Made by a program: the position numbers and the translations under genes
Part shown: piece after piece, positions 8,477-37,400 of the stretch
Layout of the letters: each line of letters opens with the position of its first letter
How positions within the stretch are numbered: position 1 is the first letter of the stretch
Notes under the pieces: generated by a model
What the model saw: the letters and a program-made list of their open reading frames with translations, nothing else
What the model was told of the DNA's origin: nothing
Databases searched by the model: none
Assembly (NCBI GenBank): GCA_947561395.2
Contig: OX387183.1
Span: 12,327,402 to 12,391,401, forward strand
DNA from: Buxus sempervirens
Lineage: Eukaryota > Streptophyta > Magnoliopsida > Buxales > Buxaceae
Direction of reading: 5' to 3'
DNA length: 64,000 nucleotides

Positions 8477-8699
8477 CTGGAGTCTTCTTCTTGAACGTAG
8501 GAGGTATGGACTGCGATACGCAATCTTGGAACCTTATCAACGAAAAGACACAAATTAGTATAAAGAATTCATATTACATCAAAATATAATGCATGTTGAT
8601 GCATGCCAATGCAGATTAGTCATGACTCTTTGATTTGATTGATTTTCACTTAATTGATTTTTTTTCTTTTGTTTTGAAACTTTTATTCAACAACCAAGG

Positions 8700-9483: not shown

Positions 9484-10792
9484 TAGGTTTGGAAACCACA
9501 GGACCCGATTTTGATTTCGGAAATGTTGAGCGTTGATTTCCAAAGGATCAGTTTGGAGAATTCCAAGGAATGATAAAGAGGTTTGAGATGATGGGAACAC
9601 AAAGTATTGATCTTTATCAGGATTTGGGGATACTACAAAAGTTGATTTCCCAATTTTGATTGATTTTCTTAAGATTTTTTTTTCTTTCTTTTTTTTCCTT
9701 ATTCTTTTTATTCTTTTTTTTTCTTCTTTTTTTTTCTTTTCTTTTGTCCGATGGCCATCAGCAAAAATAAGACTTTTTCCTTGACTTTTTTTTTTTTCAC
9801 TTCCTTATTTTGGGCTGTTTCATAGCCAAATGAAACTTGGTTTAAGCACAGGGGATTGAAACCATTTTTTGCCCTAAGGCAAATTTAATGTACACTTAGA
9901 GGCAATTCAAATCTTTTAAAATTTTGTTTTTTTTTGTTTTTTTGTTTTCTGTTTTCTGTTTTTGTTCTGTTTTTTTTTGTTTGGTTTTTTTTTTATGTTT
10001 TATGTTTTTGTGTTTTTTTTTTGAAATGAGTTAATCAGGCATGTTTATGCAGATGATCTTGAAGTGTGTGCACTTGATCCATGAAGATGCATACAAAATA
10101 AAAGCCAACATTACCATTGTGCATAATTAAAAAGTGTGTACATAATCCTAAAAAGGTTGGTGCCCCTTGAGGCACGACTTCTAGACATACTTGTGTACGG
10201 AAGCACATCTGAGTCCAGATCAGCCTTCTTTCATCTGTTCTTTTCATTTGGCTTTGCTCTCAGATGTCAGACCAAAAGAATTGATAATTTGCCAGTGAGG
10301 GCAAAAATTACATGATATTCAAAATCTGCTAAATTTCATCTTAAGGGCTTTTGGGAACCCAGAAGAAGGGTACAAATTTACTTCAAGGTAGATAGGCTGA
10401 ATTCCTAGATCTAGGGTTTTATGCCCCTGCTCTGATCTGGCCTGTTTCTGTCTGATTTTCTGATCTGGCCGACTTTCATCTGCTCAAAAGGCCGATCTGG
10501 ACTCAGAGTGCCCCCAACAGACTCAATAGGTCAAGGCCCACGGTTTACGGGACTTAATGCATGGATCTGGGGTGGCTCCCCTGATCAAGATTTGGTTGGC
10601 TTCCTAAATTAGGGCTAAGGCAGCCCAAGATCTAGGGTTCACTCAATTTAATGCAAAAGAGCGGGGTACTGCCCCTGATGGACTCTTGGATTTTAAATTG
10701 ATTTTATTTTCCAATATTCACATCCACATCCATATCCATGCTACATTCACAAAGCTGTGGTTTATCAGAAACAATAGGTGGGGAAAAGATAC
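9484..10792 (-). other. 5' leader of the gag-only element, no coding content
   Basis: This is untranslated leader between the nested solo LTR and the minisatellite. T-rich runs occupy about 9660-10020 on the plus strand (A-rich in sense). The remainder has short repeated phrases around 'gatctggcc' and 'gatctagggtt' (10400-10640). I see no gene here. The last five bases (GATAC, 10788-10792) are the target duplication of the nested solo LTR. Confidence 0.6.
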
Positions 10793-11125
10793 TGTGAGAC
10801 ATGGGAAAAAATCACCCGGAGATGATCATCCCTCCGTCAACACGCGGGGCTCGACATAAAGAGTGGGAGTCGCCACCATCCATTTGTTTAGGGTTTGAAT
10901 GGACACCAAAAGAATTAAAAACAAGCAAAGAGAGATAAAAAGTGCTAAAAGGCAAATTCTAGAGTAAAAATAACCCTACTTGAAAATCAAATCCAGAGAT
11001 GGGTAAGGGGATTAGATTATGAACGAGGGAAGGTGTTAGGCACCTCCATTCACCCACACAAGGTGGTTGCCAAGTGTTATTCATGCTAAAAGAAAATAGA
11101 AAGCTTGCTAAAAAATCATGAAAAC

Positions 11126-12348
11126 TGTAAGTGTGAAAACTCACACTCCTTATATGGAAAATGTTTGACAAATTATATCCTCTAATAATCTTCAAGATGT
11201 GCAGAATCAAAATATAAATTCTATGAATTTAGTAAAGAGGAAAGTGAGGCTGCTACACAGCTACCACGCCGCTGGTAGCTCAAGGAAGTGTAAAGATTTC
11301 TAAAGAAAGAACATTTCGTAAAGGCACCTGCAAGGAACAACGCCGCTGCCACTCCGCTGGTAGCACAGAAGTGAAATAGCACTTTGAAAGTAAAGCACGC
11401 GTACCAGCTTCATAAGGCGACGCCGACACGCCGCTGGTAGCGCAGAGCAAGATTGAAGATCTACAAATCAGCTGTGCACATGCCGCGTTCCCTCCCGCTA
11501 GCAGCACTCTGGCAGCGCGCCCATACCTGAGTCTATTTGGATTTGAGCGGGATTGAGTTCGCTTCCAGCCGTCTACCCCGATCGCGCCACGACGCCACCA
11601 GCGCTCGACGCGATCTGAGATTTCTTCTTTAAATAGACGAGCTGTATTCTTTTTGGAAAGACTTTTTTCTTTTGATTAATCGGTTGTGGATCTTGAGGTG
11701 TTCGAGATTCATTCAATTGATCTTTAGAGAGTCGGTGATCGAGTGAGGGGGAGATCTGAGAGAGATCACCTGGAATTGAAGGTTGAGGATTCTTCTTCAG
11801 TTCGGAACTTCACTTGATCGTGAGATCTCCTGGATTGGTGATCGACCTTGTTTGATGCATAGGTGGATTCCTATTACATTGGATCATCTCAGTGGACTCT
11901 GAGGTGATTGTCACGATCTGGATTGATCGTGAATTGCAGCTTGTGGATTCAAGCTGTGTTGCAGTTCGTGGATTCGAATTGTAGATCTGGATTGATCGTC
12001 ACTTGCAGCTTGTGGATTCAAGCTGTGTTGCAGTTCGTGGATTCGAGCTGTGGATCTGGATAGATCGTCTATTGCAACTTGTGGATTCAAGTTGTGCTAC
12101 AGTTCGTGGATTCGAGCTGTGGATTGCTGTTGAGTAAGTTCAATTGTAAAGGTTAAGTGTGTCTTCCTTTGTAATTGACTTTCATTCAATAGTGGAGATT
12201 CTAAGGGTTAGTCGCCTCATATAGACTCGAGGTTTTTCCTGGATCTGGATTCAGGTTTCCTCGTATAATCTCTGTGTGTTGTTTCGGCATTGTTAAGTTC
12301 TTAATTGTTGTAGATCGTGGACCTTTAGAGTAGTCCTCTACTCTTTCA
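11126..12348 (+). repeat. 5' LTR of the SIRE-type element
   Basis: It begins TGTAAGTGTG and ends CTCTTTCA. U3 contains several short hairpins built on GCTACC/GGTAGC or GCTGCC/GGCAGC (about 11260-11515), then a TATA-like TTTAAATAGA (11628-11637). About three tandem copies of a ~70-bp unit lie at 11903-12130 ('gcttgtggattcaagctg' and 'gcagttcgtggattcga'). Confidence 0.95.
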
Positions 12349-12350
12349 AT

Positions 12351-12362
12351 TGGTATCAGAGC
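12351..12362 (+). other. Primer-binding site (initiator tRNA-Met)
   Basis: TGGTATCAGAGC lies two bases after the LTR end. It matches the complement of the 3' end of plant initiator tRNA-Met, the usual primer for Copia minus-strand synthesis. Confidence 0.95.
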
Positions 12363-12408
12363 CTATTCACTTTGAATTGCTATACAAAGTGTGATCTAGA
12401 TCTATAGC

Positions 12409-15400
12409 ATGGACTTTGGAAAAGAAGGAGGATCTGCCTCTAGACCTCCATTATTCGAAGGTAACAATTATTCTTACTGGAAAGCAAGAATGAGAGCTTA
12501 CCTGAAATCTATCGATGAGCGTGTCTGGCTCTCGGTATGTAATGGTTATCATCCACTTGAGATCACAACAGAAGGAGGTGTTGTGATGCCTAAACCTCTT
12601 GATCAGTGGAGTAAAGCTGAATCTGATCTATGTGGATGGAACAACAAGGCAATGAATGGCTTATTTTGTGCTGTAAGTGTTGAGGAATTCAGGAGAATTT
12701 CCTCATGTGAAGTTGGTAAGGAAGCTTGGGACATTCTTGAGGTCACTCATGAAGGAACCTCAGCTATCAAGTTGTCTAGACTTCAAAGACTTACTACATC
12801 TTTCGAAACTCTATACATGAAAGATGATGAGTCTTTTGATGAATTTTATGCTAGACTCTCAGATATTGTTAATTCGAGTTTTAACCTTGGAGAAAAGATC
12901 TTTACATCTAAGGTTGTTAGAGAAATCTTGAGATCTTTGCCTGAAAAATTCAGACCAAAAGTTACTGCCATTCAAGAGGCAAAAGATGTGGATACCATGA
13001 GAATTGAAGATCTGGTAGGATCTTTACAGACTTATGAGCTAGATCTGAATATTCCTAAAAGGAGTAAAGGAATAGCTCTAAAATCTGTAAATAATGAAGA
13101 ATCAGATAATTCTGATGTAGATATGGATGAATTAGTTCTCTTAGCTAAAAAGTTCAAGAGAATGTTTAAAAAGAGACAATCTAATCCTTTATCATCCATG
13201 GACAGATCTAATAGGAGATCTGATAAGAAAATTTCTGATCTAAGAAAGGAGAAGAAATTTTCTCAGAATGATGAAGTTCAATGTTATAAATGTAGAGGAT
13301 TTGGACATGTTGCTTCTGATTGTCCCTCAAAGGATAAAAAGAAAAAGACAAATTATCAGGTTACTTGGGATGATAGTAATACTGATAATTCTTCACAATC
13401 AGATGAGGATATTTCTGCTAATTTTACTGCTTTCAATTCCTTTTACTCATCTTATTTTGGTAGTTCAATCTCTGGCATTGCAGGAGATAATAAAGAGACT
13501 TTATCAGATGATGAAGAAGAATTACAAGAAGCCTACAATCAGCTCTATAAGGAATTCAATAGAGCTCAGAAGAAAGTCAAGAAACTGAGTAAAAAATTGA
13601 AGGAATCAGAAACAGAGAAAAATAAAGCTCTTGCAGAAATAGATTCAATAAACAAGAAGTTACTTGAAAGACATGCCAAAGAAAATTTTCTAGTAACTTC
13701 TTTGACTGAAAAAACTGAAAAATTAAAAGAAAAGGAAGCTCAGATTTCTGCACTTCAAGGTAAAGTTATTGAACTTGAGAAATTGTCAAATTCAATCACT
13801 TCTAATGCTTCAAATTCTTCTGCAGGAAATCATCAAATTGATGAGGAATCAACTTCAAAGGAAGTTCCTAAGAGCTCAAATTCTGCTGAAAAGAGAATGA
13901 GTGTAAGTAATCAAAATAAGGAATTTTCACAGAAAGTTTTTGCTGGAGAAGTAAGCTCAACAGGTAAATCTTCAAAATCTAAATTTGTACAGTTTAGAAA
14001 TACTGTCAAATCTGGAAATTTTGATTCTTCTGAATATAGGTTCATACCTGTGTGCCATCATTGCAATAAAAAAGGTCATATAAGACCAAAGTGTCATATT
14101 TTGCATGGTTTTCCCAAGGGATATTTTGACAATAAGAGGAAAGTAAATCAAAGTCAGTCCTTGGATTTATATAACAGATTTGATTTCTTGTTAAAATTGA
14201 TTGAATCATTAAATAAGGAAGTTACAAATCTGTCAAAGAAACTTCCTTCAAAATCCCAAGTTGTTGATGAAGGTACTTCTCAGAAAACTCATGAAAAACA
14301 GATTTGGGTTAGAAAAGATTCCTTAGTTGCAAATGTGGTTCATATAGCTTTGAAAGTTCATGATGTCAACATGTGGTACTTGGATAGTGGTTGTTCAAGA
14401 CATATGTGTGGACATAAGTCTATGTTTAGTACCTTTGAAGAATATTTTGGTGGAAGTGTAACATTTGGTGATCACTTCTCCAATCAAAGGTAAAGGCACA
14501 GTAACTGGTCCTAATGGAGTGTGTCTAAAAAATGTTTTATTTGTATCTGGTTTGAAGGCAAACTTAATCAGTATTAGCCAGTTATGTGATTCAAGATTGT
14601 TTGTCAATTTTACCAGAAAAGAATGTAAAATTTTGGATAATTCTGGTAGAACTGTTCTTATAGGTGTAAGAACAAGTGACAATTGTTATGGAATCATTAG
14701 AAACAATGAAAAAATTTTAAAATCTTCTATATGCAATGAAATTGATTTGTGACATAGAAGACTTGGTCACATTAACTATAGAGATTTGTCAAAAATCTCT
14801 AAGTCTGAATTGGTTAGAGGAATTCCCAAGTTTGGGAACAATAAAAAGAAAGGAATGTGTGGTCCTTGCAATCAAGGAAAGCAAATCAAAGCCACACACA
14901 AGAAAACCAACATTGTAGGAACCTCTAGACCATTAGAACTGATTCATATGGACTTGATGGGACCTACAAAGACTGAAAGTCTTGGAGGAAAGAGGTATAT
15001 CTTTGTTGCTGTAGATGACTACAGTAGATACACCTGGGTAAATTTTCTAAGAGAAAAATCTGAATGTTTTGGTTGCTTTAAACAATTGTGCTGTCAAATT
15101 CAAGTTGAAAAGAACTTGCAAATAGGGAGGATTGTTACAATAAGATCTGATCATGGGACAGAATTTGAAAATCAGATGTTTTCCAAATTCTGTGAAGAAC
15201 AAGGAATTAAACATGAATTTTCTGCTCCTAAGACTCCACAGCAAAATGGAGTTGTGGAAAGGAAAAACAGAGTTTTGCAAGAAATGGCTAGAACCATGAT
15301 GATAGCCAAGAAAGTGTCAACAAAATTCTGGGCTGAAGCAATAAATACTGCCTGTTATATAAGTAACAGAGTATATGTCAGATCTGGGTGGAAACAAACT

Positions 15401-17329
15401 CCTTATGAAATTTGGAAAGGAAAACAGCCAAACTTGAAATATTTTAGAGTCTTTGGAAGTAAATGCTATATCCTAAGGGACAGAGAAAATCTAGGAAAAT
15501 TTGATTCTAGAAGTGATGAAGGAATTTTTCTAGGATATTCTTCTTCAAGTAGAGCATACAGAGTTTTTAACTTGCAAAAATCTGTTGTAATGGAGTCTAT
15601 TAATGTGTTAATAGATGATGAAGGAATTGACTGTGAATTTTTGCAGGTTGTAGATGAAGAGGATGAAATCAGAGATGCTTCCTCAAGCAATGAAGTTGTT
15701 CCTCTGACAAAAACTCTCAAAGATCACCCAACTGAGCAAATTGTTGGAAATATTTCAGATGGTGTAAGAACAAGACATCAATTACATAATGAGGTAAGAT
15801 TTTCTTCTTATCTATCTCAATTTGAGCCAAAATCTTATAAAGATGCCTTGTTGGATGAATCTTGGTTAAATGCTATGCATGAAGAACTAAACCAATTTAC
15901 TAGAAACAATGTATGGGAATTTGTTGAAAGACCCTCTGATCTGAATGTGATAGGAACCAAATGGATTTTTAAGAACAAATCTGATGAGAATGGGATTGTA
16001 ACCAGAAATAAAGCTAGGCTTGTTGCTCAGGGATACACCCAAGTAGAAGGAATAGATTTTGATGAAACCTTTGCTCCTGTAGCTAGGTTAGAATCAATCA
16101 GATTACTTTTGTCTATTGCATGCTATTTGAAGTTTAAACTGTTTCAAATGGATATTAAGAGTGCATTCTTGAATGGATATTTGAATGAAGAGATTTATGT
16201 AGAGCAACCTAAAGGATTTGAGGACACAAATCATCCTAAACATGTTTATAAGCTGAACAAGGCCTTATATGGACTCAAACAAGCTCCTAGAGCTTGGTAT
16301 GAGAGACTCACCTCTTTCTTACTTGAATCTGGTTTTATGAGAGCAAATGTGGATAAAACTCTTTTTATTCAAAGAGAGTCCAAGCATATTTTGATTGCTC
16401 AAATCTATGTTGATGACATAGTGTTTGGATCTACTTCTGAAAATCATGCTCACTCCTTTGGAGACTTAATGAAGAGTGAATTTGAGATGAGTATGATGGG
16501 TGAACTGAATTTTTTCTTAGGACTTCAGATTTATCAATCTCAACAAGGGATTTTTTTCTCTCAAGCAAAATATGCTAGAAATCTAGTCAAGAGATTCAGT
16601 TTAACTCATGCAAAACATGCTAGGACTCCTATGAGTACTAGCTTAAAGCTTGGAAAAGATGAATCTGGTAAGGATATAGACCCTACCTTGTACAGAGGGA
16701 TGATTGGAAGTCTTCTGTACTTAACAGCAAGTAGACCTGATATAAGTTTTAGTGTTGGAGTTTGTGCAAGATATTAGGCTAATCCTAAAGAATCTCATCT
16801 AAATGCTGTGAAAAGGATTATAAAGTATGTAAATGGAACTGTTGATATGGGAATTTGGTTTTCCAAAGAAACAAACCCATATCTTACTGGATACACTGAT
16901 GCTGATTGGGCTGGGTGTATGGATGATAGAAAAAGCACCTCTGGTGGTTGCTTTTATATGGGTAATAACCTCATTGCTTGGTTAAGCAAAAAGCAAAACT
17001 CAGTTTCACTGAGTACAGCTGAAGCAAAGTACATTGCTGCAGGAAGCAGTTGTACTCAACTAATTTGGATGAAACAAATGCTATCTGATTATGGTTTAGA
17101 TCAGGACCAAATGATTCTCTTCTGTGACAATCAGAGTGCCATAAATATTTCCAAAAATCTTGTTCAACACTCAAGGACTAAACATATAGACATCAGGCAT
17201 CACTTTATAAGAGAGTTAATTGAAGACAAAACTGTTATGATTGAATATATATCTACTGAAAAACAGTTAGCTGATATTTTCACTAAACCTTTAGATCAGA
17301 ACAGATTTGAAACTCTTAGGAAACCCTAG
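12409..17329 (+). pseudogene. gag-pol: Copia gag-pol polyprotein with one frameshift and two nonsense codons
   Basis: The ATG at 12409 opens a 694-codon frame. It holds a gag domain, two zinc knuckles (CYKCRGFGHVASDC near residue 291, CHHCNKKGHIRPKC near residue 547) with a lysine/glutamate-rich coiled coil between them, and the protease motif WYLDSGCSRHMC near residue 657. The frame then shifts at about 14470-14485. Integrase ([38 protein letters not shown]), reverse transcriptase ([21 protein letters not shown]) and RNase H ([20 protein letters not shown]) follow. TGA at 14750-14752 falls where the integrase Zn motif has Trp, and TAG at 16775-16777 interrupts the RT-RNase H linker. The frame ends at 17329. 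Every domain is present, but this copy cannot make full-length pol without readthrough. Confidence 0.95.
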
Positions 17330-18594
17330 GAGTATGCTCTCAAAACTGAAAATCAGGTTCTGTTTTGAGTTAATTTAGATGTAAAATGATTTACGTGTCT
17401 GTTCAAAATGAATTTATGTGTTCTTGATACTAAAATCTTAACTCAGGAAGCTTGAGTCTATGCATATTGACAGAAATGTTGTGTTCTCAACTATCATTTT
17501 TGTCTTAAACACCTTTGTGTATTGAAGTTTATTGTGTGTTGAAGCTTGGGATCTATAGGCTATCACCTTTATGAAAAGAAAAGTTTTGGAAATGGCTGCC
17601 ATAGAGATTAGAGTGAAAGCCACTGTAATTCTCAAAAAGAAAAAGAGAAAGAAGGTATATTCTTGAAATGAATTGTAAACTCAGGTTTTTTAAGGGTCAA
17701 TGCCTTCTACAAAAAGAAAAGAAAAAGAGATCAGAAAAGGCTACCTATCTCTGATGTGCGAAAGCCACCAAAATGAAGTTTGGGGTATGTCTATACTTTC
17801 CAAGTATGATTACACTAAAATAGCTTTCCATATGCAAAAAGTGTAAAAGTCAAAAATATTTCACACACTACACAAGCAATGTTTCATTAATATGCGTGTG
17901 TGCTCAATATCTTGAAGAAAATTTATAGTATGAGAAACCATGAAGGAAATTTTGGTCATAGATATGAAATGTGTCACATCTGAATTAACCTTGATAGGTT
18001 CTTCATGATCAGTTTTGTGATAAGTACTTCTTAGATTGAATAAAAGTTGATTATCTGGATGATTTTTAGTTTAGTTAAAATCTTAGCTTTGTGTTTAGAT
18101 GTATGAGTTTTTCATGAAGAATAGTTCAAACTCTTTTTATAAATTTTTGCCTTGTGAGTGTGTTTTTTCTTGTTTGTGCATGTGCACCTTCTACGTCGCT
18201 AGAAGCATGCCGGTAGCTTTCTCCTTTCTTCTTGCTTTGGCACCTGCCCTGTTAAGCGTCGCCGGATGCACGCTGGCAGCGTGTTCTTTTTGTCTATAAA
18301 AAGGTGAAATCTGTTTCACTTTTTTACCTCTGTTTTTTTTTACCTGCGGCTCTCCTCGCTCCTCGCGTCGTGGTCATTCTTTGCCTTCGTGCTTACCTTC
18401 CGTCACCTTGTCCACTGTTCAGGTAAAATTTTTTTACTATCTTCGTCTTGCTTCTTCATTTTTCTTCTTCCTTTTTCAGTGTTCTTCTCTCGTTCTTCCA
18501 AGTTAGGGTTTGGTAGATTGTTCTGTCATTAGGGCTTTGTCGAGCTTTGCTTGTGTTTTTCTCTCTCGTCTATTTCTTTCTGTTTTTTTTCATC
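17330..18594 (+). other. Spacer between pol and the extra ORF, with a promoter-like segment
   Basis: This is non-coding and A-rich. Its last part holds hairpin-type strings related to the LTR's own U3 motif (GCATGCCGGTAGC near 18205; ACGCTGGCAGCGTG near 18270), directly followed by TATAAAAAG at 18295-18303, then a pyrimidine-rich leader up to the ATG at 18595. The combination resembles a second, LTR-like promoter serving the extra ORF; that is inference. Confidence 0.6.
18295..18303 (+). promoter_or_regulatory. TATA box upstream of the extra ORF
   Basis: TATAAAAAG lies 292 bp before the ATG at 18595 and directly downstream of GGCAGC hairpin-like repeats that echo the LTR U3. It is a good plant TATA match. 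Whether it is used is not visible from sequence. Confidence 0.5.
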
Positions 18595-19876
18595 ATGCCT
18601 CCCAAGAAGAAGTCTAGAACTGATTCTCCTTCCACCTCTTCTCCACTAGTAAGATCCTCACCGGTTGTCTCTTCTCCACCGGTGAGACACCCTTCCCCTT
18701 CTCATTCCTCTGAACCATTCCTTGGAAATGGTTTATCTGATTTTAATGAGTTCTTCAAGCATAGGCCACTCCTTTTGGAAAGGGCCATTAAGCTTGATTC
18801 CTTTTCTGAATCTCCTCTCTTCTCATTGTTTTCGGACAATGGTTGGAAAAAATTTGCTTTGATAAGTGGTTTTGCATATCCTGACCTGGTTCGAGAATTC
18901 TATTCGAACCTCCACCATCCTCATCTGGACAATCAAGGCTTTGTCAAAGCCTATGTCAGGGGCATCTCTTTCGACTTCTCGAAAGAGCTTATCTCATCTC
19001 TTCTAGAACTGCCACTTGTTGATTCTCCCTCCTTTGATTTTTTTTTATTCTCACTCTGATCCTCCCATGGAGTCAATCATTTCTTCTCTGATTGTTCAGG
19101 GTGCTCCCACCTCCATAAAAAATAAGCCCAACTATCTTCCTCATGGCTCTCTTCAAGATCTTCTCAGGATCTTGAATCTGTTTGTTTGTGCCTCTCTTGT
19201 TCCCTCAGATCATCATTCTGAGGTTTCTCACTATAGAGCAAGACTCCTTCATGCTCTCTAGAACAGAGACAGTGTCTGTCTACCTTCAATCATCTTCAAT
19301 CAAATCCTTCAGTCTCGGAATTTAAAATCCAAGACTGCTGCTCTTCCATTTGGGATTTTCATCTCTTTCATGTGCATTCACCAGGGGATCTTACCTGATC
19401 CTGTTGAATTGGTCATTCATCCCAAACCTCCCATTGATGCCTCCACCCTCACCCGAAGCAAATGAGCAAATCCTTTTCGGTTGGCTTCTTCTTCGGAGCC
19501 TTCTTCTTCTCCCTCCTCTTTGTCCAGTTCTGATGCTACGGCAATCTTGGACAAATTGAATTCCATGCAAGCCTCCTAGGAGGCTTTCAATTCTGAGGTT
19601 AGGGCTCACATGCTCATGATGAGCATGTTCAAATCAGAGACCCAGGAGAAGCTTGCAAAGGATGTTGACTTTGCTTGTGGCGAGGTGCAAAGGGATGTTG
19701 CTGCTCAGCAACGAATGCAAAACGAAGCTGATCATTTTCTGAGCAGCATTCGAAGAACTCAGCTGGAGATGGATCACAAGCTCTGTTGGTTGCACTCTCA
19801 GTCCCAAGATGCTTATCGGCATTACTCCAGAACTTGGGATCCGAAACCTCCTTCCAGAAAGGGGGAGTCATTTTGA
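18595..19876 (+). pseudogene. Extra 3' ORF with plant-transposon-protein domain, broken
   Basis: It starts MPPKKKSRTDS, a lysine-rich, possibly nuclear-targeting start, followed by a Ser/Pro-rich stretch. The conserved block around 18760-19010 (NGW...YPDLVREFYSNLH...YVRGI) matches the equivalent ORF of the second SIRE-type element (58269-57134), and a C-terminal coiled-coil-like segment ends at 19876. I recognise it as the 'putative plant transposon protein' family found after pol in SIRE-like elements. It has been called env-like elsewhere, but I see no signal peptide or membrane span. Lesions: a frameshift in a T run near 19040, TAG at 19259-19261, TGA near 19467 and TAG at 19577-19579. The biological role is unknown. 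Confidence 0.75.
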
Positions 19877-20201
19877 TGATGTTGCTGCTGGTGCTGGTTG
19901 ATGGTTGATGGTTGCTGGTTGAGGATCATCAAGTTGTTTTTGTGGTTTGTTCTGTTGGTCTGTGTCTTTTTTTTTGGTTGGTTTTTGGGGTTTCTGGATG
20001 TAGGTTTACGGGGGAGTTTTTTTGTTTGGCTGAATGTGTATATATTTGCTGAACACTGTATATTTCGTCTGAATACTGTATATTGTCTCTTGAAATGAAT
20101 GAAAATCTGTGTTCCCTCTTATTATTGTGTTTTGAATGTTTAAATGGAATTCAATATCTGAATTTGATAATAAGCATGTAAGTTTGTTGTCAGGCATTTG
20201 C

Positions 20202-20213
20202 CAAGTGGGAGAT
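20202..20213 (+). other. Polypurine tract
   Basis: AAGTGGGAGAT immediately precedes the 3' LTR. It is the expected plus-strand primer and fixes the LTR start at 20214. Confidence 0.9.
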
Positions 20214-21436
20214 TGTAACTGTGATAACTCACACTCCTTATATGGCAAATGTTTGACAAATTATATCCTCTAATAATCTTCAAGATGTGCAGAATCAAAA
20301 TATAAATTCTATGAATTTAGTAAAGAGGAAAGTGAGGCTGCCACACAGCTACCACGCCGCTGGTAGCTCAAGGAAGTGTAAAGATTTCTAAAGAAAGAAC
20401 ATTTCGTAAAGGCACCTGCAAGGAACAATGCTGCTGCCACTCCGCTGGCAGCGCAGAAGTGAAATAGCACTTTGAAAGTAAAGCACGCGTACCAGCTTCG
20501 TAAGGCGACGCCGACACGCCGCTGGTAGCGCAGAGCAAGATTGAAGATCTACAAATCAGCTGTGCACATGCCGCGTTCCCTCCCGCTAGCAGCGCTCTGG
20601 CAGCGCGCCCATACCTGAGTCTATTTGGATTTGAGCGGGATTGAGTTCGCTTCCAGCCGTCTACCCCGATCGCGCCACGACGCCACCAGCGCTCGACGCG
20701 ATTTGAGATTTCTTCTTTAAATAGACGAGCTGTATTCTTTTTGGAAAGACTTTTTTCTTTTGATTAATCGGTTGTGGATCTTGAGGTGTTCGAGATTCAT
20801 TCAATTGATCTTTAGAGAGTCGGTGATCGAGTGAGGGGGAGATCTGAGAGAGATCACCTGGAATTGAAGGTTGAGGATTCTTCTTCAGTTCGGAACTTCA
20901 CTTGATCGTGAGATCTCCTGGATTGGTGATCGACCTTGTTTGATGCATAGGTGGATTCCTATTACATTGGATCATCTCAGTGGACTCTGAGGTGATTGTC
21001 ACGATCTGGATTGATCGTGAATTGCAGCTTGTGGATTCAAGCTGTGTTGCAGTTCGTGGATTCGAATTGTAGATCTGGATTGATCGTCACTTGCAGCTTG
21101 TGGATTCAAGCTGTGTTGCAGTTCGTGGATTCGAGCTGTGGATCTGGATAGATCGTCTATTGCAACTTGTGGATTCAAGTTGTGCTACAGTTCGTGGATT
21201 CGAGCTGTGGATTGCTGTTGAGTAAGTTCAATTGTAAAGGTTAAGTGTGTCTTCCTTTGTAATTGACTTTCATTCAATAGTGGAGATTCTAAGGGTTAGT
21301 CGCCTCATATAGACTCGAGGTTTTTCCTGGATCTGGATTCAGGTTTCCTCGTATAATCTCTGTGTGTTGTTTCCGCATTGTTAAGTTCTTAATTGTTGTA
21401 GATCGTGGACCTTTAGAGTAGTCCTCTACTCTTTCA
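20214..21436 (+). repeat. 3' LTR of the SIRE-type element
   Basis: Same length (1,223 bp) and features as the 5' LTR, including the ~70-bp tandem repeat (about 20991-21218) and TATA-like sequence (about 20716). Differences visible by eye include 20219, the TGGCAA/TGGAAA site, and several CpG sites in the GCTGG(T/C)AGC motifs. Confidence 0.95.
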
Positions 21437-23018
21437 AAAACCTTGAAAAAGGACAAATATATGATATCTTCACATGAAAATCCAAATTAATTCCAGATCT
21501 TCTTTTATGTTAATATCACTTCTGGAATATCACAAAAAGATGGAAATCACAGCAAAAGTTGCACAAAACCAAGTTGAGGCAAATCCGGGAAATTTGGTAA
21601 AAAGTAAGGCCATTTCTCTTGAAATTAATCAAATCCAATTTTAAATTAAATCAAACCAAATCCATTTGAAAGATTAGGGTAAACAATAGTCTCATGCAAA
21701 ATTTCAATTAATTCCGGTTGAAATTCTAAGAGTTATGGCTCTTTTAAAGTTGCTGCCGAAGAAAATCAAAAGTAGCAAGTAGGCAACTTTGGAAAATCAC
21801 CTAGAAAAATCTACTCCATAGAAATCCGTGAATTTCGTGTCAATGAAGTCTGTATGGCCATCTTTCAAAGGAAACTAGCCTCATACAAAAACTCATTCGG
21901 ATGTGCCTTGGGTGACTTCCCGAACAGGCCCCGAGGATCACAGATTGACCCAGAAAAGTGCTGTTGAGCAGTTCTGAGTAAATCTGCTCTCTACGACACA
22001 ATTTAAATCCAAAAAATATGAAACCAATTGGAGTTAAAAATAAACTCATAAAGGAGTGTCCAGAAACAAAAATCACTTGAATCGGATTTAAAACGAACAC
22101 ATGGTGCTCCGTCGAAGTGACAAGTTCCGTATTTAAACCTGAACTGACCAATAAATTTCGACAGAGAGGTGTCAAAAATATGCTTGATAGAAATCAACGA
22201 AATTTGGTAGGTATAAACTAGACAGCCTCACCTTTCCCATGGTTTTAGAATCACGCCAAAATTCATCCAGATGATGAAGTTATGAGTGTCCGAAGTCAGG
22301 GTACAATTGCTGTCAAGTAAAAGCCTATTTTGAGTAAAAACAATGCAAAACTGTGACAAAGTGTGTGCAATTCGTGTAAGATGAACACAAAACCTTTAAA
22401 ACTCATTTAAAGATATTCTAGAATTGATTGAGGCCATTTATTTGAGATTTATCACAATGAATGTAATAAATCCCCAAATGTGAGCCTATCTCGCCAAAAT
22501 TGTGCTATGTATGTGCAAGTGTGAAAAACCATACAAGATCAATACAAACACATAGCATGCATACATATTCATCAAAATAAGGTTCTAAAACAACCTAGGG
22601 TTCCGTTCCATTATCGTTTCCCTTTGTTCTCTCTCCCCGTTAAACACGGTTCTTCAAGATAATCAAGGGTACTTTGAATATGAAACGGTTTACAATCAAT
22701 CAAAAGGCTTATGCAAGTTAGGGTTCTAGTACTAGGGTCAATCCCAAGTCTCGTTTCTCCTAGATCCCGCCTCCATGTTTTACGGCTAGGGGGAGTCTCG
22801 AGATACTTTGAGCTGGGGAAGGATTTTCACACACAAAGAAGGCTTTATTCTACAGAAAGGTAGAAGAAGAGATCTAGATCTAGGAATGTAAATACAGAAA
22901 AATAAAGGAGGGTTGAGGCTTACCTGGGGTTCTGGAAGCAATCCGGCAGCGGTTCCCTTCTTCACTTAGAGCTCTTGGATCTCCAACTTCTTGGCCATTT
23001 GCTTAAGGAGGAGCCTCC

Positions 23019-23026
23019 TATTTATA
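23019..23026 (-). promoter_or_regulatory. TATA box of the split solo LTR
   Basis: In sense (minus strand) the sequence reads GCCTATAAATAGG, a consensus plant TATA box. Identical TATAAATA boxes occur in the solo LTRs at 34478, 41099 and 53611, which supports all four as LTR promoters. Confidence 0.75.
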
Positions 23027-23181
23027 GGCAAAGGCTAGGGTTGATGGTAGACACAACTTAATGTCTAGAGCCCATCAACCTTAACCCTAGGGCTGTTTCT
23101 GAGATTTCCCCTCATTTAATGAGGGATATGATGGTAAAAAGTGATTTCTCTCGGAAAACCCTAATTTTTGAGCAAAACTTA

Positions 23182-23325
23182 TGTATCCGGCATATTAAGC
23201 CGGATACACAAGGGCCTTAATGTATCCGGCATATAATGCCGGATACACTAAAGCTTTCTTGTATTCGGCATTTTCCATCGGATACAAAGAAAGGTACTTG
23301 TATCCGGTCTGAGTTGCCGGATACA
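23182..23325 (-). repeat. Palindrome array: four 27-bp units at exact 39-bp spacing
   Basis: Units start at 23182, 23221, 23260 and 23299, exactly 39 bp apart. Arms are TGTATCCGGCA / TGCCGGATACA, with decay in units 3 and 4. The spacers are not repeats. It lies about 155-300 bp upstream (sense) of the TATA box. Confidence 0.9.
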
Positions 23326-23365
23326 AAGAAAAAAGCCTTTTTTCCAAATTTTAACACAGGCAATA

Positions 23366-23447
23366 CTTATTTACATGTAATATCGTTTAAGTAAATGTCC
23401 TCGTATTTTTTAATCTCCATTTACTTAAGATATTACATGTAAATAAG
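23366..23447 (-). repeat. Long inverted repeat in the solo LTR
   Basis: Arms of about 30 bp, starting TATTTACATGTAATATC and returning as GATATTACATGTAAATA, are separated by about 22 bp (TCCTCGTATTTTTTAATCTC). The related solo LTR at 33434-36051 has the same structure at 33884-33966 with near-perfect arms, so it is a family feature. Confidence 0.85.
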
Positions 23448-23894
23448 CAAACACCCCCGATTTGAATCCATTAAAAATAGTTCCAGACCCAAATTCCAAG
23501 TGAATAAAAAGTCAACTTTCCAGTTCTAGGCAAAATTCCGATTTTTCAGGTCTGAAAAAAAGGTTCAATATGTTAAAACCAAGGTATTCGTCAAGATTTA
23601 AAATCTCAAAAATTCTTTTATGCAATAACATGGCTAAAAACCTGATTACCGGGAAAAATTATCTTGAAATATGGCTTTAAAAAATATTTTATTTTCTGGG
23701 GTCAAAAGTCAACAAAATTCAACCGGAAAAAGCTTGACTTTGCACAAAAGATTGAATTCGGGCCTTTTCCTTTTCCGTTTTGGATTCAAATGGGTTAAGT
23801 ATCTTAAACCCAATGCAAAGAATTGAAAATTCCAATAAAATATTTCTCTCCTTCAAGATTTATCAAAAATCGTGCAATTTTGGGGGTGTCTACA

Positions 23895-24582
23895 GATACC
23901 CAGCCCAAGACATTCGTCTACAAGGGTCTGAGCCAAGTACTAGACCCTCGCGTACCACAGCATAAAGCCAATGGCGCTAAGGAATCCAGAAACCTAGGGA
24001 GATGGGTTTACCCTGCTTTCCCTGGCAAACCACGGGAGCGTAGGGCTAATACCATCCCAAAAGTAAGTTCATCGTTTGAGAAGGGTGGCTGCTAGAGAGA
24101 TCTAGGTTTTGGTGAAGAAGAGCAGCATGTCATCAAATCATTCAAAGGGGATCATTCAAGCAGACCCCCTCGTGCATGTCACCCCATGCAGTCAAAAGAT
24201 CATTCACGGTGTAGTGAAGTGCTCGTGTGTGCAGTGGGGCAAAGTGCTGTGTCTATTTGGGTGATTCTCGGATAATAAGCTGATAAAGGGTTCCTTAATG
24301 TCACTTTTATAGTTAGAGTACAGAACAACATGCAATACGACGTCTGGGTGGATCCCCAGGTAAGTGGGCAGGTCACATCGGTCCCTGTTAAAAACCACTT
24401 ACCTTAGGCAATTATCATGTCCGTTTGACAGGATCCCCCAATATCACGTAATTGCAAGAGTTCCATACTTCACTAAGGTTGGACAAAAAGTACTTCCTAA
24501 ATTTGCTCATATCCCCCTATGTTGACTCATTTCCTAACCAAGGTCCAATTGGACTGAGAGGTCCCCAGTGGAGTCGCCAAGC
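23895..24582 (-). other. Start of the gag-only element's leader, with primer-binding site
   Basis: Untranslated leader between the 5' LTR and the nested solo LTR. It holds the primer site and no coding sequence I can support. Confidence 0.7.
24561..24579 (-). other. Primer-binding site of the gag-only element
   Basis: The minus strand reads TGGCGACTCCACTGGGGAC, starting four bases after the LTR. The plus strand is thus a tRNA 3' end finishing in CCA (GTCCCCAGTGGAGTCGCCA). Ogre elements are known to use tRNA-Arg; I could not check which plant tRNA this matches. It fixes the element's orientation. Confidence 0.85.
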
Positions 24583-27105
24583 TGTGCGCACCCCATTTCG
24601 GGCCGCACGACGAGGTGCATGCAAAGTGATGCTCGCCTCGGGACTTGTTTGGGAGTCGCCACTGCCTGAGAGGTGCAAGCAGACACAGGGTTCCTAACCG
24701 GGTCTATTATGACTGGTCTGCGGCTTTATTAGAGTTTTCTGGGTAAGTTCTCGGTTACGGTTCGGGGAAGTCCGAAGACACCCCGGTCCGCCCCACGATC
24801 TGACGGGTCTCATGGGTCTCCCTGGTTCTGAGTCAACTCAGTCTAACCCTGTTCCTAACCCAGCATGCTTGTTTGTTTGGTCTGAGTGGGGACCACTGGA
24901 GGTATAGGTCCCCTTTATTTTAATTGATTTTATCTTTTTTAGCCTTTTAGTGAAGTGAGTTGGGTGTGGGCCCCGTTGGAAGGCCCATTGGATACCAAGT
25001 TGGGCTTAAGGCAAGCCCAATTCCCATTTAGAATTATGTTGGATAACCCTTTTTGGATTTGGTTATTTAATTGTCTAAAATTCATTTGGTTTTAAACATA
25101 AGAGATTAGAATTCACAAAAAGAGTTGAAAAAGGGTTTTTGGAATTTACAGGGTGTAGCTGAAATTTAATTTCGGTTATACCAATTTTTTAGTTTAACCG
25201 AAATTAAATTTCGGTTAAGCTATAATCAGCCTTAACCGAGATTTAATTTTGGTAAAACTTAAAAATGAGTTTAACCGATCTGTATTTTCGGTTAAGGGTA
25301 AAAAACTGATTTTTTAAGATATTTTACAGAAAACTGATTTTTTGGTATTTTTGGGTTTTGTGTGGGCCCCTGTGTGGGCCTACAGTGGTGAAGAACTTTG
25401 AAGGAAGGCCTTATTTGACCACCTTCTTATCAAATCATCATCAAGAAGCATAAAAAAAAAACAAAATAAAGAAGGGATTTGGGGGATTTAATGGGGTACA
25501 TTAGAACTTAAAGGAGGAGGGGAACAAGCTCCCCTTTTTAATAATTCAGACATGATAAAGGCAGCCCTTCAAGTATGCTTCAATTTGCTTTTGTAATTAG
25601 GCGGACGACACCTCCTTACCATGAGATGTTTCTCATATGAAGGGAAGATGGAAGATAATCAAGATCAAGCATTAGTATAAAAAGACAAGGAATAGAAATA
25701 AGTAATATTCTTGAATCACAACTTTATTCACTTATATATAGTACAACTTACCAGAAAAGCTTACCTAGGGAATGCTTGAAGGTGTGGAATCCCTTGGAGA
25801 TTTTTCCGGCAGCGTAACGGCTTCTCTCCAAGCTCAAGAGAAAGATTTCAAAAAACCTCCTTCGGGTTTGTGATTGAAAGGAAGAAGTTTGAGAGAATTT
25901 TGATACACTTGGACGGAGTCTGGGGGCTTTTGGAAGGATTTAAAATGGGATTTCGGCCAGCGTAATGGCTCTTTCTTGAGCTCAAGAGGGGGGTATCTAA
26001 GCCTACTTTGGGTTTGCAAGAAAATAAGAGGTTTGGGTTTGACGAGAGTTGGTTGTAGCAGGGTTTAAGAGGGGTCGAAGACCTAAAAAGGAATAGAAGA
26101 GGGAGTGGTTTGGAAAGGGAGAGAGAGGAGAGAGGGAGGAGAGGGAGTGAAAGAGGTGTGAAAGATTCAGTGCCCATGGAAAGGAAGGGTCGACTCCCTT
26201 TTATAGTGAATGATGAAATATGACCAAAAAGTAATTATTTGTTATATTGTAATTAAAACCCAACATTTTATAGTTTTATGTTTTTTTTTAAATAAGGCAA
26301 TGATGGCCCTTATTCTCATCCAAAGAGAATATATACAGCTCATGGGGACACCTCATCCCCATGTGCAAAATTAATTTTTGATTTTAATTTTTATTTATTT
26401 AATTTGCTTGATATTTATGTGTTTATTATTATTTTAATTGGAATTTTTTTTGATTTTGAGCACATGCGTGCATTGATTTTTTTATTTTCTTTTTCCTTTA
26501 TTTTAAACCTCTTAATTAATGTTGTATGAAAATATTATTATTTTAATTGAAGATTCTTTTCTTTTTGCTGTTTTTGCCACATGTGCAGATTTTCCGAAAC
26601 TTTGACTACTCATATCACTTTCATTCGGTGTCTGATTTTAGCAAACTTAGTGGCGTTGGAATCAGTGCGAAATTCTCTATCCACTGAGCCAGAGTTTTGC
26701 AGAAAACTCGGCTTTTTTAGCAGAAGTGCAAAGTCGTGTCTTGGAGCCAATTTTGCTCATATCTCTCTATCCAGGACTCCGATTCCAGCAAACTCAGTTG
26801 CGTTGGAATCGTGTCGATGCACTCTTTCTGCTGATATCCAATTGAGCAGTTGATTCGGGATTTAGCAGAAAGTCGATTTCTGCTTTTCTCAGATTTGACC
26901 AGTCCATAACTTCTTCATCTGATCTCCGATTTGAGCGAACTCAGTGTTGTTAGAATCGTATCGAAATCCTCTTTTCAATGGTATGAAGTTTGGTAGCCAA
27001 CTTGCACCCGATCAAAAAGTCAACTTTTTGACCCCTTGGGTTTTGAATTTTTCAATTAGGGTTTTATTCTTTTATTTTTCGGGGTGCAAAAATGAGGTGC
27101 TGACA
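24583..27105 (-). repeat. 5' LTR of the gag-only Tat/Ogre element
   Basis: Partner of 1059-3568, same layout: U3 ~140-150-bp repeats (about 26590-27010), TATA box CTATAAAAG (26206-26198), palindrome array (about 25150-25300), tRNA-primer-like TGGCGACTCC (24661-24652). 13 bp longer than its partner through small indels. Confidence 0.9.
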
Positions 27106-33324: not shown

Positions 33325-33883
33325 TCCCCCCTCAAGCCAAGCTGGAGAGGATGGACAATGAGGCTTGAACGAATAAGATGAAACCGTGGTGAGGATAGGG
33401 GCTTCGTGAATATATCAGCCAACTGATCCTTGCTGTAGACACCCCAAAATTGCACGATTTTTGATAAATCTTGAAGGAGAGAAATATTTTATTGGAATTT
33501 TGAATTCTTAGCATTGGGTTTGAGATCCTTAACCCATTTGAATCCAAGGCCGCAAAGGAAAAGGCTCGAATTCAATATTTTATACAAAGTCAAACTTTTT
33601 CGGGTTGAATTTTGTTGACTTTTGACCCCAGAAAATGAAATATTTTTTAAAGCAAGATTTGAAGATAATTTTTCCCGATAATTAGGTTTTTAGCAATGTT
33701 ATTGCATAAATGAATTTTTTTGAGATTTTAAATCTTGACGAATACCTTGGTATTAACATGTTGAATCTTTTTACCGGACCTGAAAAACCGGAATTTAGCC
33801 TGAAACTGGAAAGTTGAATTTTTATTCACTTGGAATTTGGGTCTAGAAATATTTTTAATGGATTCAAATGGGGGGGTGTTTGC

Positions 33884-33966
33884 TTATTTACATGTAATAT
33901 CTTAAGTAAATGGAGATTAAAAAATACGAGGACATTTACTTCAACGATATTACATGTAAATAAGCC
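33884..33966 (+). repeat. Long inverted repeat (~32-bp arms)
   Basis: The left arm begins GCTTATTTACATGTAATATC and the right arm ends GATATTACATGTAAATAAGC; about 25 bp lies between. It is the same structure as 23366-23447 in the related LTR. It would form a stable RNA or cruciform hairpin. Confidence 0.85.
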
Positions 33967-34008
33967 TGGCCTGTACAGCTAAGGCTTAAAACCAACCAAA
34001 AATGTGCT

Positions 34009-34276
34009 GACCGTAGTATATGTGCGGTTTTTGAGAATTTGGTCTCAACCGCCCTGTATGTACGGTTGCAACCGTATACACAGCACGGTTGATATTCATG
34101 CTTGTTGCGTGAGCTGCCACGTGGCTTCCGGAAGCTTCGGCCGTTGAGCCACGTCAATAGCAATCATGACGAACGTAATTGAATTGGAACCGCTCTATAT
34201 GTGCGGTTGAGATGAATTTGCATAGAAACCGCACATATAGTGACGGTTATGTAGAAACCGCACTGTGTATACGGTT
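34009..34276 (+). repeat. Palindrome array: six AACCG...CGGTT units
   Basis: ACCG cores lie at 34010, 34048, 34071, 34189, 34228 and 34257, each closing with CGGT about 15 bases later. Spacings of 38 and 39 recur, with 23 and 29 for the others. The array is upstream of the TATA box at 34478. Confidence 0.8.
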
Positions 34277-34477
34277 TTGGCTGTTTCGGGGATTTGCGAA
34301 ATGGCTCGATCTCTGACCCTTATTTACGCATATTGCCTCTCTCTCAGGGACTTGAACTCCCTATTTCACCCTCCGAAACTTGCTAAATTACTCCAATTCA
34401 AGCCTTTGGGGAGAATTGGAATAATCTAGAAGGCTTTTTTGGCATACCCTTGGGACTCTTCTACCCTTGGCTTTGCC

Positions 34478-34485
34478 TATAAATA
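34478..34485 (+). promoter_or_regulatory. TATA box of the solo LTR
   Basis: GCCTATAAATATAGG, matching the TATAAATA boxes of the related LTRs. Confidence 0.7.
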
Positions 34486-37400
34486 TAGGGGTCCTCCTCT
34501 TGCAAATGGCTGGCAATTTGAAGCATAGAAGCTCTGCAAGAAGAAGGAAAACCCTGCTGGATTGCTGCCTCAAGGCCCAAGCTACTAAAGGTAAAGCTCC
34601 ATTTCATTTCTTGCTTCTCCTTTACATTTCAACTCCCAACTTTTACCTTTCTGTAGTGTAAGGCCATTTGGTGATTGTTTGCAAGCCCCAAACCTCTTTC
34701 AAAGTACCTGGGAATCCTCTCTAGCCGTAAAACGTGAAGAGAGAGCCTTGGGAAAAGGAAGATGGAATGGATCCTTTAGGCTAGAACCTACCTTGAATGA
34801 TTTGCATGTTATTTTTATATGCTGATTATTTGTGCTATTTGAATCTGGTTTTCTATTCAAAAATATTTCAAAACAGGACAGCATCTGTGGACTGTCTTGG
34901 AATGCTCATAACTTCATCCTCCGGATGAATTTTTGAGTGATTCCAAAGACACAAGATAGAAGAGTATGTCTAGTTTATATCTGGAAATTTTCATCCACTT
35001 TTATGTAGCTAATTTGTTGACACCATCTGTTCAAAGTCTGTAAGTCAGTTCAGTCCAGATTGCTGAACTTGCCGCTTTGATGGTGCACCATTTGCTCAAT
35101 TTTAATCCGTTTTGAGTGATTCCAGTTTCTGAGTTTTCCTTAAGAAGTCTATTTTCATTTCCAACTGGTTTCAGTAGATGTTGATCTGTTTTGTGCCTTG
35201 GGTGCTCAGTTGACTCAGAGGTGCTCGCTGGCATAGTCCAGAGCTAATCTGTGGTCTTCTGGGCCTGTTCAAGAGAGCATACAAGTCACATCCGGATAGA
35301 GTTTGGTGTGGGGTTTTTTTCTTTGGAAAGATGGCACCACATTCTTCCTTCATACCAATTTTCATGGATTTTTATTGAGCCAAACTCCACGAATAGGATT
35401 TTGAAAATGCCTACTTAACACTTTTTCCAAGTTATAACAGCAAATTTCAGATGTGGATATCTCTCTCATTTTGAATCAGATTGAGCTGAATTTTTTACTG
35501 TACACTCTACTATATACCAGTTTTCAAATGGCTTTGGTCTCATTGGATTTGGATTTAAATTGAGTGAGTTATGGTTAATCGAAGCTTTCAAGCTCTTTTG
35601 ATCTAATTTCTCCAGATTTGCCTTAGCTTGATTTTTCTCCATTTTTTACTTTGATTTCCTTTCACTCATGAAGTTTTAGAAGTGATGAATCCACGAAGAG
35701 AGTCTAAGTTCATTGGACTTCTCATGAGGAATGGTCACACACATTGTGCTTATTATAAGCACCTCTTTGTTCATTTTTATTAGCAAACAATTTCTAGCAT
35801 AAGCAAGCATGCGGCAACCGTCTTAGACGGATGAGTGGGGGTGCCTAACACCTTCCCCCGCTCATAAATAATTCCCCTTACCTGATCTCTGGATTTCCCT
35901 TTCATTTAGAGCTACTTTGGCTCTATTTGGCTTCTATGAACCCCTTGGTGTCCATTCACACCTTAAGATGGATGGTGGCGACTCTTTACATTTATCGATC
36001 CCTGCGTGACGATATCGGAAGTCATCCTAGATGACATTTCCATGTCTCACACTTGTTGGAGAGAAAAGCAACCTGAAGAGTCTTGGCAGCAACACGATCT
36101 CTAACAAAATGAAAATCTATATCAACATGTTTAGTCCTTGAGTGAAACACTGGATTAGAGGATAGGTACGTAGCTCCCAAATTATCACACCACAAAACTG
36201 GTGGAGAGGAAAGAAAGAAACCCAATTCTTTAAGCAGAGATTGAAGCCACAAAAGTTCACAAGTTGTATCCAGCAAGGGCCTTGTACTCTGCTTTTGTGC
36301 TCAATTGAGCAATAGTAGGCTGTTGCGAGAATTCCAAGAGACCAAATTTTTGCCGAAGAAGACACAATAACCACCTGTGGAATGCCGACTGTTAGGACAA
36401 CCGGCCCAATCAGCATCTGAATATGCAGCTAATGTGAGCTGAGAAGAAGGCTGAATGTGAAGTCCAAAGTGCGCATAGTTTGCTTGAGGTAGCGAAGTAT
36501 ACACTTGACAACTTGCCAGTGGGACAAGCGTGGAGAATGCAAATACTGAAGACGGCCAACAATGCTCCTGAAGATGGAAAGATCTTCAAAAGAAGGACCA
36601 TCAAGAGCAGTAAGCTTAGTTGAAGTAGCCATTGGAGAGTTGATAGGCTTACAATCCAGCATATTAGTTTGCTTAAGGATGTCCTGAATGTATTTCTTTT
36701 GAGAAAGAAAAAGACCAGATGAATCAAAGTGAACCTCAATTACTAAGAAATAATGAAGAGAGCCTAAGTTACGAATGGGAAAATGGGAGCTGAGGGAAGA
36801 AATAAAAGATTGTAAAGCTGTAGAATCTGAACCTGTAAGAACAATATCATCAACATATACTAAAAAATAAAGTGTGACAGACTTAGAATTATAAATGAAA
36901 AGATCGAGAGGAATCAAATTTGGAGGCAACAAAACCTAATTCAAGCAACCAGGAACTCAATTTGGCAAACCAGGCCCTTGGGTCCTGTTTAAGACCGTAA
37001 AGAGCTTTATTTAAACGACAAACATAAGAGGAAAATTGAGGGTGGACAAAACCTAGGGGTTGGGCCATGAACACTGCTTCTGCAAGGTCACCATGAAGGA
37101 AGGCATTTTGTACGTCTAGTTGATGCAACGGCCAGCCATTCTGAACAGCAATTGACAAAACCAACCTCAAGGTAGTAGGCTTCACCACCGGATTGAATGT
37201 CTCGGTGTAATCCAAGCCATCAATTTGATGGTAACCTTTAGCAACAAGCCTTGCTTTCCTGTGCTCAATTGTGCCATCAGCCTGTCGTTTGGTATGAAAA
37301 ACCCATCGACAACCAAGAACATTCTAAGAGGGAAAAGGAGGAACAAGAGACCAAGTATGATTTTGAAGAAGGGCATGAAACTCAGTAGACATGGCATCAC

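Follow-up and report, generated by a model that had tools for sequence, protein, structure and literature searches.

Phased CCG-N11-CGG palindrome arrays in long terminal repeats of Buxus sempervirens as candidate sites for a dimeric DNA-binding protein

Among Copia retrotransposons, Sireviruses carry in their long terminal repeats (LTRs) several palindromic RM boxes that cluster shortly upstream of the TATA box and are linked to CpG islands (PMC2829016, Bousios et al. 2010). In the available passages of that paper, the CGG-CCG core is kept while the rest of each box is element-specific, and the motif is described as Sirevirus-specific and absent from the classic Copia elements compared. The palindrome clusters of maize Sireviruses are further presented as small-RNA hotspots in the LTR cis region (Bousios et al. 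2016, as related in excerpts of PMC10760457 and PMC5311732). A system with a known reader is that of the VANDAL elements, whose VANC proteins, according to the portions of PMC5735166 at hand, bind short tandem-repeat motifs that differ from one related element to the next and co-evolve with the protein. The present work concerns a stretch of 64,000 nucleotides from Buxus sempervirens (contig OX387183.1, positions 12,327,402 to 12,391,401; hereafter the window), in which four phased palindromes, referred to as the target array, lie within an LTR.

The initial annotation of this DNA described four 27-bp palindromes at an exact 39-bp spacing in an LTR, and each part of that description was confirmed. 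The units are 27 bp long and follow one another in steps of 39, 39 and 39, exact to the base (Table 1); the surrounding sequence has TG...CA ends (TGTAGAC...CTCACA) with the 5-bp target site duplication (TSD) GATAC on both sides and is a complete solo LTR. In the window as a whole, inverted repeats with exact 8-bp arms and a loop of at most 13 number 86, against 15-22 in five first-order Markov shuffles. The pattern TGTATCCGG-N9-CCGGATACA occurs at 14,723 places in the 676.5-Mb genome, while the same pattern read backward occurs at none, so the target palindrome is not a product of chance. A perfect inverted repeat of 19 bp (23366-23384 / 23429-23447, span 23366..23447), enclosing 44 bp, lies next to the array toward the 5' end of the LTR; it also occurs near 33885-33965 in a sister solo LTR that starts at 33434.

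Both distances that define the array are fixed throughout the genome. When 0-30 bases are allowed, the inner gap is exactly 9 in 14,723 of 14,793 places (99.5%), and the gap between successive palindromes is exactly 12, which gives the 39-bp period, in 7,544 of 7,661 (98.5%). The intervening letters vary: 30 distinct spacers were counted among the 50 junctions listed and 37 distinct centres among the 66 units listed, with strands pooled and all listed matches coming from one contig. A set of 25 loci was also examined, consisting of the target, two coordinate-chosen loci (L011 and L016), two exact-palindrome genome matches and 20 loci hand-picked from the listings; L002 and L003 overlap L001 and are not counted separately, and L012 holds further TGTATCCGG-type units outside this set. 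With up to 5 mismatches in 18 permitted and the inner gap left free between 5 and 13, 103 of 106 units have an inner gap of 9 (two others have 5 and one has 11), and 70 of 79 intervals have a spacer of 12 (the rest being one of 11, one of 19 and seven above 75). The spacing of other copies, a check that the initial annotation had proposed, is thus not random.

The palindromes are conserved unevenly along their length. Across 13 non-redundant arrays, drawn from 17 four-unit arrays by removing near-duplicates and admitting only those with 12-bp spacers, identity is 0.918 in the arms, 0.594 in the centres and 0.567 in the spacers, with orientation chosen by array identity (for L021 and L025 both orientations score almost equally). 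The proposal that palindromes are kept and spacers less so therefore stands. In a slightly different 13-array set, where the orientation of L021, L025 and L038 is wrong or undecided, the arm core TATCCG is retained at 614 of 624 pooled positions, CpG included, with looser conservation of the outer T (86/104), the G (97/104) and the inner G (91/104). The 468 arm pairs of that set contain 38 one-sided changes, 4 symmetric double changes and 1 change that is unlike on both sides, as would be expected for half-sites read as DNA. The best evidence that the distances are constrained, and not merely inherited, is the rarity of length changes. Spacers and centres show 30 length differences per 2,789 substitutions (0.011), about 17-fold rarer than in the adjacent 150 bp past the array toward the TATA box, where 311 gaps accompany 1,625 substitutions (0.191). 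This comparison takes all 120 pairs of 16 four-unit arrays that have a TATA box, with centre length set by unit placement; L021, L025 and L038 are excluded from it and from the within-array comparison given below.

A second line of evidence comes from arrays with other arm letters. The initial annotation had proposed that other families bear other palindromes, usually in a CCG...CGG frame. This was correct, and the frame can be specified more closely as CCG-N11-CGG. Across 14 stretches of 10 kb chosen by coordinate (the 14 of 20 chosen that exist), 64 trinucleotides at 60 gaps give 3,840 tests of inverted pairing, and CCG-N11-CGG ranks first with 57 occurrences against 9.4 expected (p 7.5e-26; runner-up p 3.4e-8). 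Because matches cluster and are not independent, the p value serves as a ranking only. Two CCG-N11-CGG dyads lie within 160 bp of each other in 7 of the 14 stretches, whereas gaps of 9, 10, 12 and 13 do so in 1, 0, 0 and 1. Sorted by outer neighbour, ACCG/CGGT peaks at N11 with 24 occurrences (at most 3 at any other gap of 0-30) and TCCG/CGGA with 15 (at most 5). CGC-N7-GCG and CGC-N18-GCG rank 2 and 4 in the same test.

The dyads fall into several classes. TAT-CCG-G..C-CGG-ATA, with a period of 39, comprises the target and others; AA-CCG-AAATT..AATTT-CGG-TT, with a period of 38/39, occurs in L008 and in E1, the element into which the target LTR is inserted; AA-CCG..CGG-TT, with steps of 23, 28 and 37-39, occurs in the sister LTR at 33434, L006 and L012; and GC-CCG-TA..TA-CGG-GC, the TGCCCGTA type, with a period of 27/28, occurs at 41901, at 53635, in L014 and in L018. 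For the last, TACGGGCA-N{0,30}-TGCCCGTA is found at 3,022 places in the genome (control 65), and among the matches listed the gap is 5 in 49 of 50 places, corresponding to a period of 28 with CGG-N11-CCG between units. Units of the form GGTGAT-CCG..CGG-ATCACC in L012 and L016 differ at three outer positions, each altered in both arms so that the symmetry is preserved. The suggestion of a lineage-wide fixed phasing is borne out by the TGTATCCGG type, with its 39-bp period, and by the TGCCCGTA type at 28 bp but not by the AACCG type. Outside the CCG frame, a second palindrome array type with GCGCTCAC arms is present in L010 (8651-8887), L016 (6168-6382) and possibly the window (431-540), with centre distances of 62-63 and 128-148 bp. 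Palindromes of the GAACGTTCG type cluster at 58438-59004 of the window.

The position of the arrays relative to the promoter is also recurrent. Among the 25 loci, 12 have a TATA match 154-155 bp past the array, 5 have it at 165-166 bp and 2 at 10-11 bp; the pattern used found no TATA match in the remaining 6 of 25, and the surroundings of the arrays at 41901-41973 and in L018 likewise gave none. For the other classes, the nearest AACCG-type dyad is 203 bp upstream of TATA in the sister LTR (TATA at 34477), L006 and L012, and the nearest dyad is 56 bp upstream in L008 and 231 bp in L014. A helical-phase reading, in which the 11-bp differences between 39 and 28 and between 154-155 and 165-166 would be meaningful, is given little weight since AACCG arrays also use steps of 23.

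Because the half-site letters, the distance between half-sites and the distance between dyads are fixed, the centre is tolerant and a TATA box lies downstream, the array is probably, though by no means surely, a row of sites for a dimeric CGG-reading DNA-binding protein acting on the LTR promoter. A DNA-binding-site array was among the roles listed in the initial annotation, and the fixed gaps and arm conservation make it the best reading of the sequence here too. In such a scheme, the four phased sites would together act as a cis-regulatory module within this large plant LTR, each dyad consisting of CCG-N11-CGG with family-specific symmetric flanks. A homodimeric protein would bind with one dimer per palindrome, and neighbouring dimers would probably be in contact, allowing cooperative binding. 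In families with a TATA match, E1 excepted, the module stands upstream of that box, and it may raise LTR transcription or shield the LTR from silencing. The units themselves may have arisen by tandem duplication of a unit of about 39 bp, after which selection would have held half-sites and distances while centres and spacers drifted.

Several observations weigh against this reading. In E1, the likely TATA box, CACTATAAAAGG, precedes the array by about 900 bp instead of following it, and AACCG-type arrays lack strict phasing, mixing steps of 23, 28 and 37-39. Copies are related by descent, so that thousands of places represent far fewer independent events. All 30 length differences in spacers and centres stem from two loci (L004 and L037), and the arrays compared included none that were E1-type, three-unit or TATA-less. 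For the 28-bp type, spacers are little diverged among the matches listed, which makes its fixed gap less informative. As for the frame, the N11 signal of CCCG/CGGG is weak, with 5 occurrences where gap 8 has 7, and no GCCG/CGGC dyad has the N11 gap; 44 of the 57 N11 dyads have pairing outer neighbours, and the excess is confined to these symmetric-flank dyads because the other 13 do not exceed the counts at other gaps (2-14). Finally, a 19-kb hold-out gave 5 occurrences at N11, 5 at N13, 4 at N25 and 0-3 at other gaps, with four of the five N11 dyads coming from one array.

One alternative is that the structure is inherited and without function, reflecting an ancestral 39-bp tandem duplication in young copies whose palindromes are kept by quasi-palindrome correction or template switching. 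The arrays do retain a trace of such an origin. In 11 arrays, within-array identity is 0.371 for spacers against 0.253 when shuffled and 0.397 for centres against 0.277, values that 0 of 1000 shuffles reach; reverse-complement identity is equally high (0.369 and 0.426, with no null computed). Some arrays have identical or nearly identical centres in their units 1 and 2 (L032, where they are identical, and L011). Since spacers and centres keep this weak similarity, the units arose at least partly by duplication. The spacers are accordingly diverged but not, as had been claimed, unrelated (37% alike against 25%), and the claim that tandem duplication is a poor explanation survives insofar as the distances are constrained beyond inheritance but must concede that duplication contributed. 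The four symmetric double arm changes, where about one is estimated from the one-sided rate, also fit inheritance. So does the mosaic nature of the LTRs, whose joints fall at the array. In a four-locus comparison, the target and L001 are 95% identical on the side away from TATA and 76% on the TATA side, while L001 and L011 are 96% identical on the TATA side and 42% on the other. Among 21 arrays, one upstream module is joined to five different downstream modules, under single-linkage grouping at 85 and 88% in which nine of the ten upstream groups have 1-2 members and may be broken copies. Because upstream and downstream modules combine differently across it, the array probably marks a joint where parts of LTRs have been swapped, an outcome to be expected if the template is switched during reverse transcription. 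Inheritance nonetheless leaves unexplained why length changes per substitution are 17-fold fewer than in the neighbouring 150 bp and why arms are far better conserved than centres and spacers. Moreover, hairpin-templated correction preserves symmetry and not one fixed sequence, and it would not yield an N11 frame across different arms. On balance, this alternative appears unlikely.

A comparably improbable explanation is epigenetic docking, whereby the array, through CCG/CGG in symmetric context, would nucleate methylation or heterochromatin or would be the target of a VANC-type element-encoded anti-silencing protein; the latter overlaps with the dimer-site reading, and the probabilities of all the readings therefore do not sum to one. 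The observed/expected ratio of CpG is 1.16 in the target array against 0.35 and 0.78 in its 500-bp flanks, and the turnover of VANC motifs between related VANDAL elements, as described in excerpts of PMC5735166, resembles the arm turnover seen here. In L012 and L014, open reading frames (ORFs) for a plant mobile domain (PMD, PF10536) run antisense to LTRs of this kind and lie upstream of them; they are only candidate accessory proteins of these elements and candidate readers of the arrays. They are comparable to the antisense ORFs of Retand elements, which lie between pol and the 3' LTR and encode predicted DNA-binding proteins (PMC11963269, in the passages available). Methylation alone, however, requires none of N11, N9 and N12. 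The most far-reaching proposal would combine these elements: a Gypsy LTR group sharing an invariant CCG-N11-CGG operator with flank turnover, an element-encoded dimeric reader, perhaps from the antisense PMD ORF, private promoter or anti-silencing keys that co-evolve, and arrays that act as module joints. As a whole, that proposal is doubtful.

Least likely is selection at the level of RNA, in which palindrome hairpins in LTR transcripts would feed or evade small-RNA pathways as proposed for maize Sirevirus: the 161-nt array has a strong predicted RNA fold (-82.3 kcal/mol against -33.6 +/- 4.05 for shuffles, z -12) and the maize clusters draw excess small RNAs (PMC10760457, as excerpted), yet hairpins need neither an exact 9-nt loop nor exactly 12 nt between them, which 99.5% and 98.5% of places keep, the half-site letters are fixed, the 38 to 4 ratio of one-sided to symmetric arm changes favours DNA binding, and a transcript starting from the TATA box of the target LTR would carry the array, which lies upstream, only at its 3' end.

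The target LTR belongs to a three-deep nesting at 1059-27105, in which a Copia element (LTRs 99.0% identical) sits in the solo LTR and the solo LTR in a Gypsy element (LTRs 97.1%). This outermost element, E1, is 26 kb long, and its minus-strand reading is indicated by the gag ORF and by TGGCGACTCCACTGGGGAC just past the LTR. Its gag is of the Ty3/Gypsy type (PF03732), with 12 relatives found, the named ones from Vitis and Anisodus; no pol was found among the two E1 ORFs scanned. The Tat/Ogre lineage comprises very large LTR elements with a tRNA-Arg primer site. Features of E1 that bear on membership are its 2.5-kb LTRs, the PF03732 gag and TGGCGACTCCACTGGGGAC a few bases past the LTR, which we take to be a tRNA-Arg primer site. 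For the target LTR family, no internal region was found at the eight LTR ends examined, and it is only a putative member of Tat/Ogre. Inside the LTRs, about 80 bp before the end, GTGGCGACTC occurs in the sister (~35973-35984), in the target (~10870) and near the 3' end of the E1 LTR; it resembles a tRNA-Arg primer-site motif.

The first ~540 bp of the sister solo LTR match the target LTR at 92% identity; beyond them, an AACCG-type array stands in place of the target type. A pair of 275-bp direct repeats (97.5%, window 33050-40285) encloses this LTR together with minus-strand Copia ORFs, for which reason the sister LTR probably lies inside a Copia element. The window holds four Copia coding regions, two of which have a located LTR pair (11126-12349/20214-21437 in one case and, by inference, 33050-33324/40011-40285 in the other). 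CCG-N11-CGG dyads are absent from both located Copia LTR pairs.

Table 1. Coordinates of the palindrome arrays, the elements that carry them and nearby features (window positions unless a locus is named).
Feature	Position	Strand	Remark
Palindrome unit 1	23182..23208		TGTATCCGG-N9-CCGGATACA, perfect 9-bp arms
Palindrome unit 2	23221..23247		perfect 9-bp arms
Palindrome unit 3	23260..23286		one mismatch per arm (TGTATTCGG / TCGGATACA)
Palindrome unit 4	23299..23325		perfect 9-bp arms
TATA box CTATAAATA	23019..23027	minus	155 bp past target array in LTR sense
Solo LTR holding target array, larger part	21438..23894	minus	start TGTAGACACCCCC at 23894
Target solo LTR, remainder beyond nested Copia	10793..11125	minus	end ...CATGTCTCACA
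Target solo LTR, TSD GATAC, right copy	23895..23899
Target solo LTR, TSD GATAC, left copy	10788..10792
Copia element nested in target solo LTR	11126..21437	plus	LTRs 11126-12349 / 20214-21437, 99.0% identical
E1, host element at insertion site of target solo LTR	1059..27105	minus	LTRs 1059-3568 / 24583-27105, 97.1%; TSD CAACT; gag 7406-8299
AACCGAAAT-type CCG-N11-CGG dyads, one E1 LTR	1637..1769		steps 39 and 77
AACCGAAAT-type array, other E1 LTR	25152..25295		two dyads still exact
Sister solo LTR	33434..36051	plus	TSD CTTGC / CTTGT
AACCG-type CCG-N11-CGG dyads, sister LTR	34011..34274
TGCCCGTA-type dyads	41901..41973		28-bp period
TGCCCGTA-type dyads	53635..53817		nearest 16 bp upstream of TATA at 53619 (minus)
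PF10536 / Transposase_32 (PF20167) ORFs near LTRs	L012 8084-8746; L014 1230-4436; window 57137-58153		possible accessory proteins

Dimer-binding sites under turnover would be expected to keep their dyad geometry while the arm letters change, as seen here. The prediction is a single reader family whose flank contacts are family-specific. The 27-bp dyads with their 39-bp and 28-bp phasing could serve as short baits for isolating such a reader. If it were encoded by the element, VANC-like self-regulation would extend to LTR retrotransposons; VANDALs themselves are not LTR elements. If instead the host supplied it, one site type alone would be spread across the genome in no fewer than 14,723 exact copies.

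Turning to known systems, the VANC target arrays of Arabidopsis VANDAL elements are, as far as the available excerpts go, similarly short motif arrays in non-coding regions of transposable elements with turnover of the unit, but the VANC reader protein is known whereas the array here is one of putative protein sites. Fungal Zn2Cys6 factors of the Gal4 type recognise CGG-N11-CCG sites. As here, these are dyads of two CGG triplets with 11 bases between them, but the direction of the triplets is opposite, and we know of no Gal4-type (Zn2Cys6) factor in plants. LOB/LBD proteins, for which excerpts of PMC10118128 give a GCGGCG site and a dimeric 'molecular calipers' mechanism, are no more than a lead as putative CGG readers. 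A palindrome minisatellite of Beta vulgaris was set aside, as the passages of PMC2820488 at hand concern other sequences and not LTR arrays. One of the two arm 9-mers is present somewhere in 213 papers, and the 20 listed among these look unrelated by title.

Like the present arrays, the palindrome clusters of maize Sireviruses lie in the LTR cis region, are predicted to fold strongly and, in the excerpts available, vary highly in sequence; the strict conservation of gaps here differs and points to a constraint at the DNA level. The RM boxes of Sireviruses are similar in being palindromic with CGG and CCG, several per LTR and clustered upstream of TATA, as in 19 of the 25 loci here. They differ in that 12 of the 13 boxes printed in PMC2829016 (its Table 3, as interpreted here; Tnd-1 is without the core) read CGG-N4-6-CCG instead of CCG-N11-CGG, and in that the available passages give no fixed box-to-box distance, in contrast to the strict phasing found here. 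Their hosts are Copia elements, whereas E1, which carries one of the array types, has a Gypsy-type gag, suggesting that arrays of this kind are not limited to Copia. The initial annotation had recognised no published description, which holds only for this lineage and geometry: no account of CCG-N11-CGG arrays or of fixed 39/28-bp phasing in Gypsy LTRs was found in searches of the open-licence literature that were followed up through the papers cited here. Palindromic CGG/CCG arrays upstream of TATA were already known from Copia Sireviruses (PMC2829016, in the passages available), and what is new here is their occurrence in a Ty3/Gypsy-like context, a CCG-N11-CGG frame whose arms turn over and the strict phasing.
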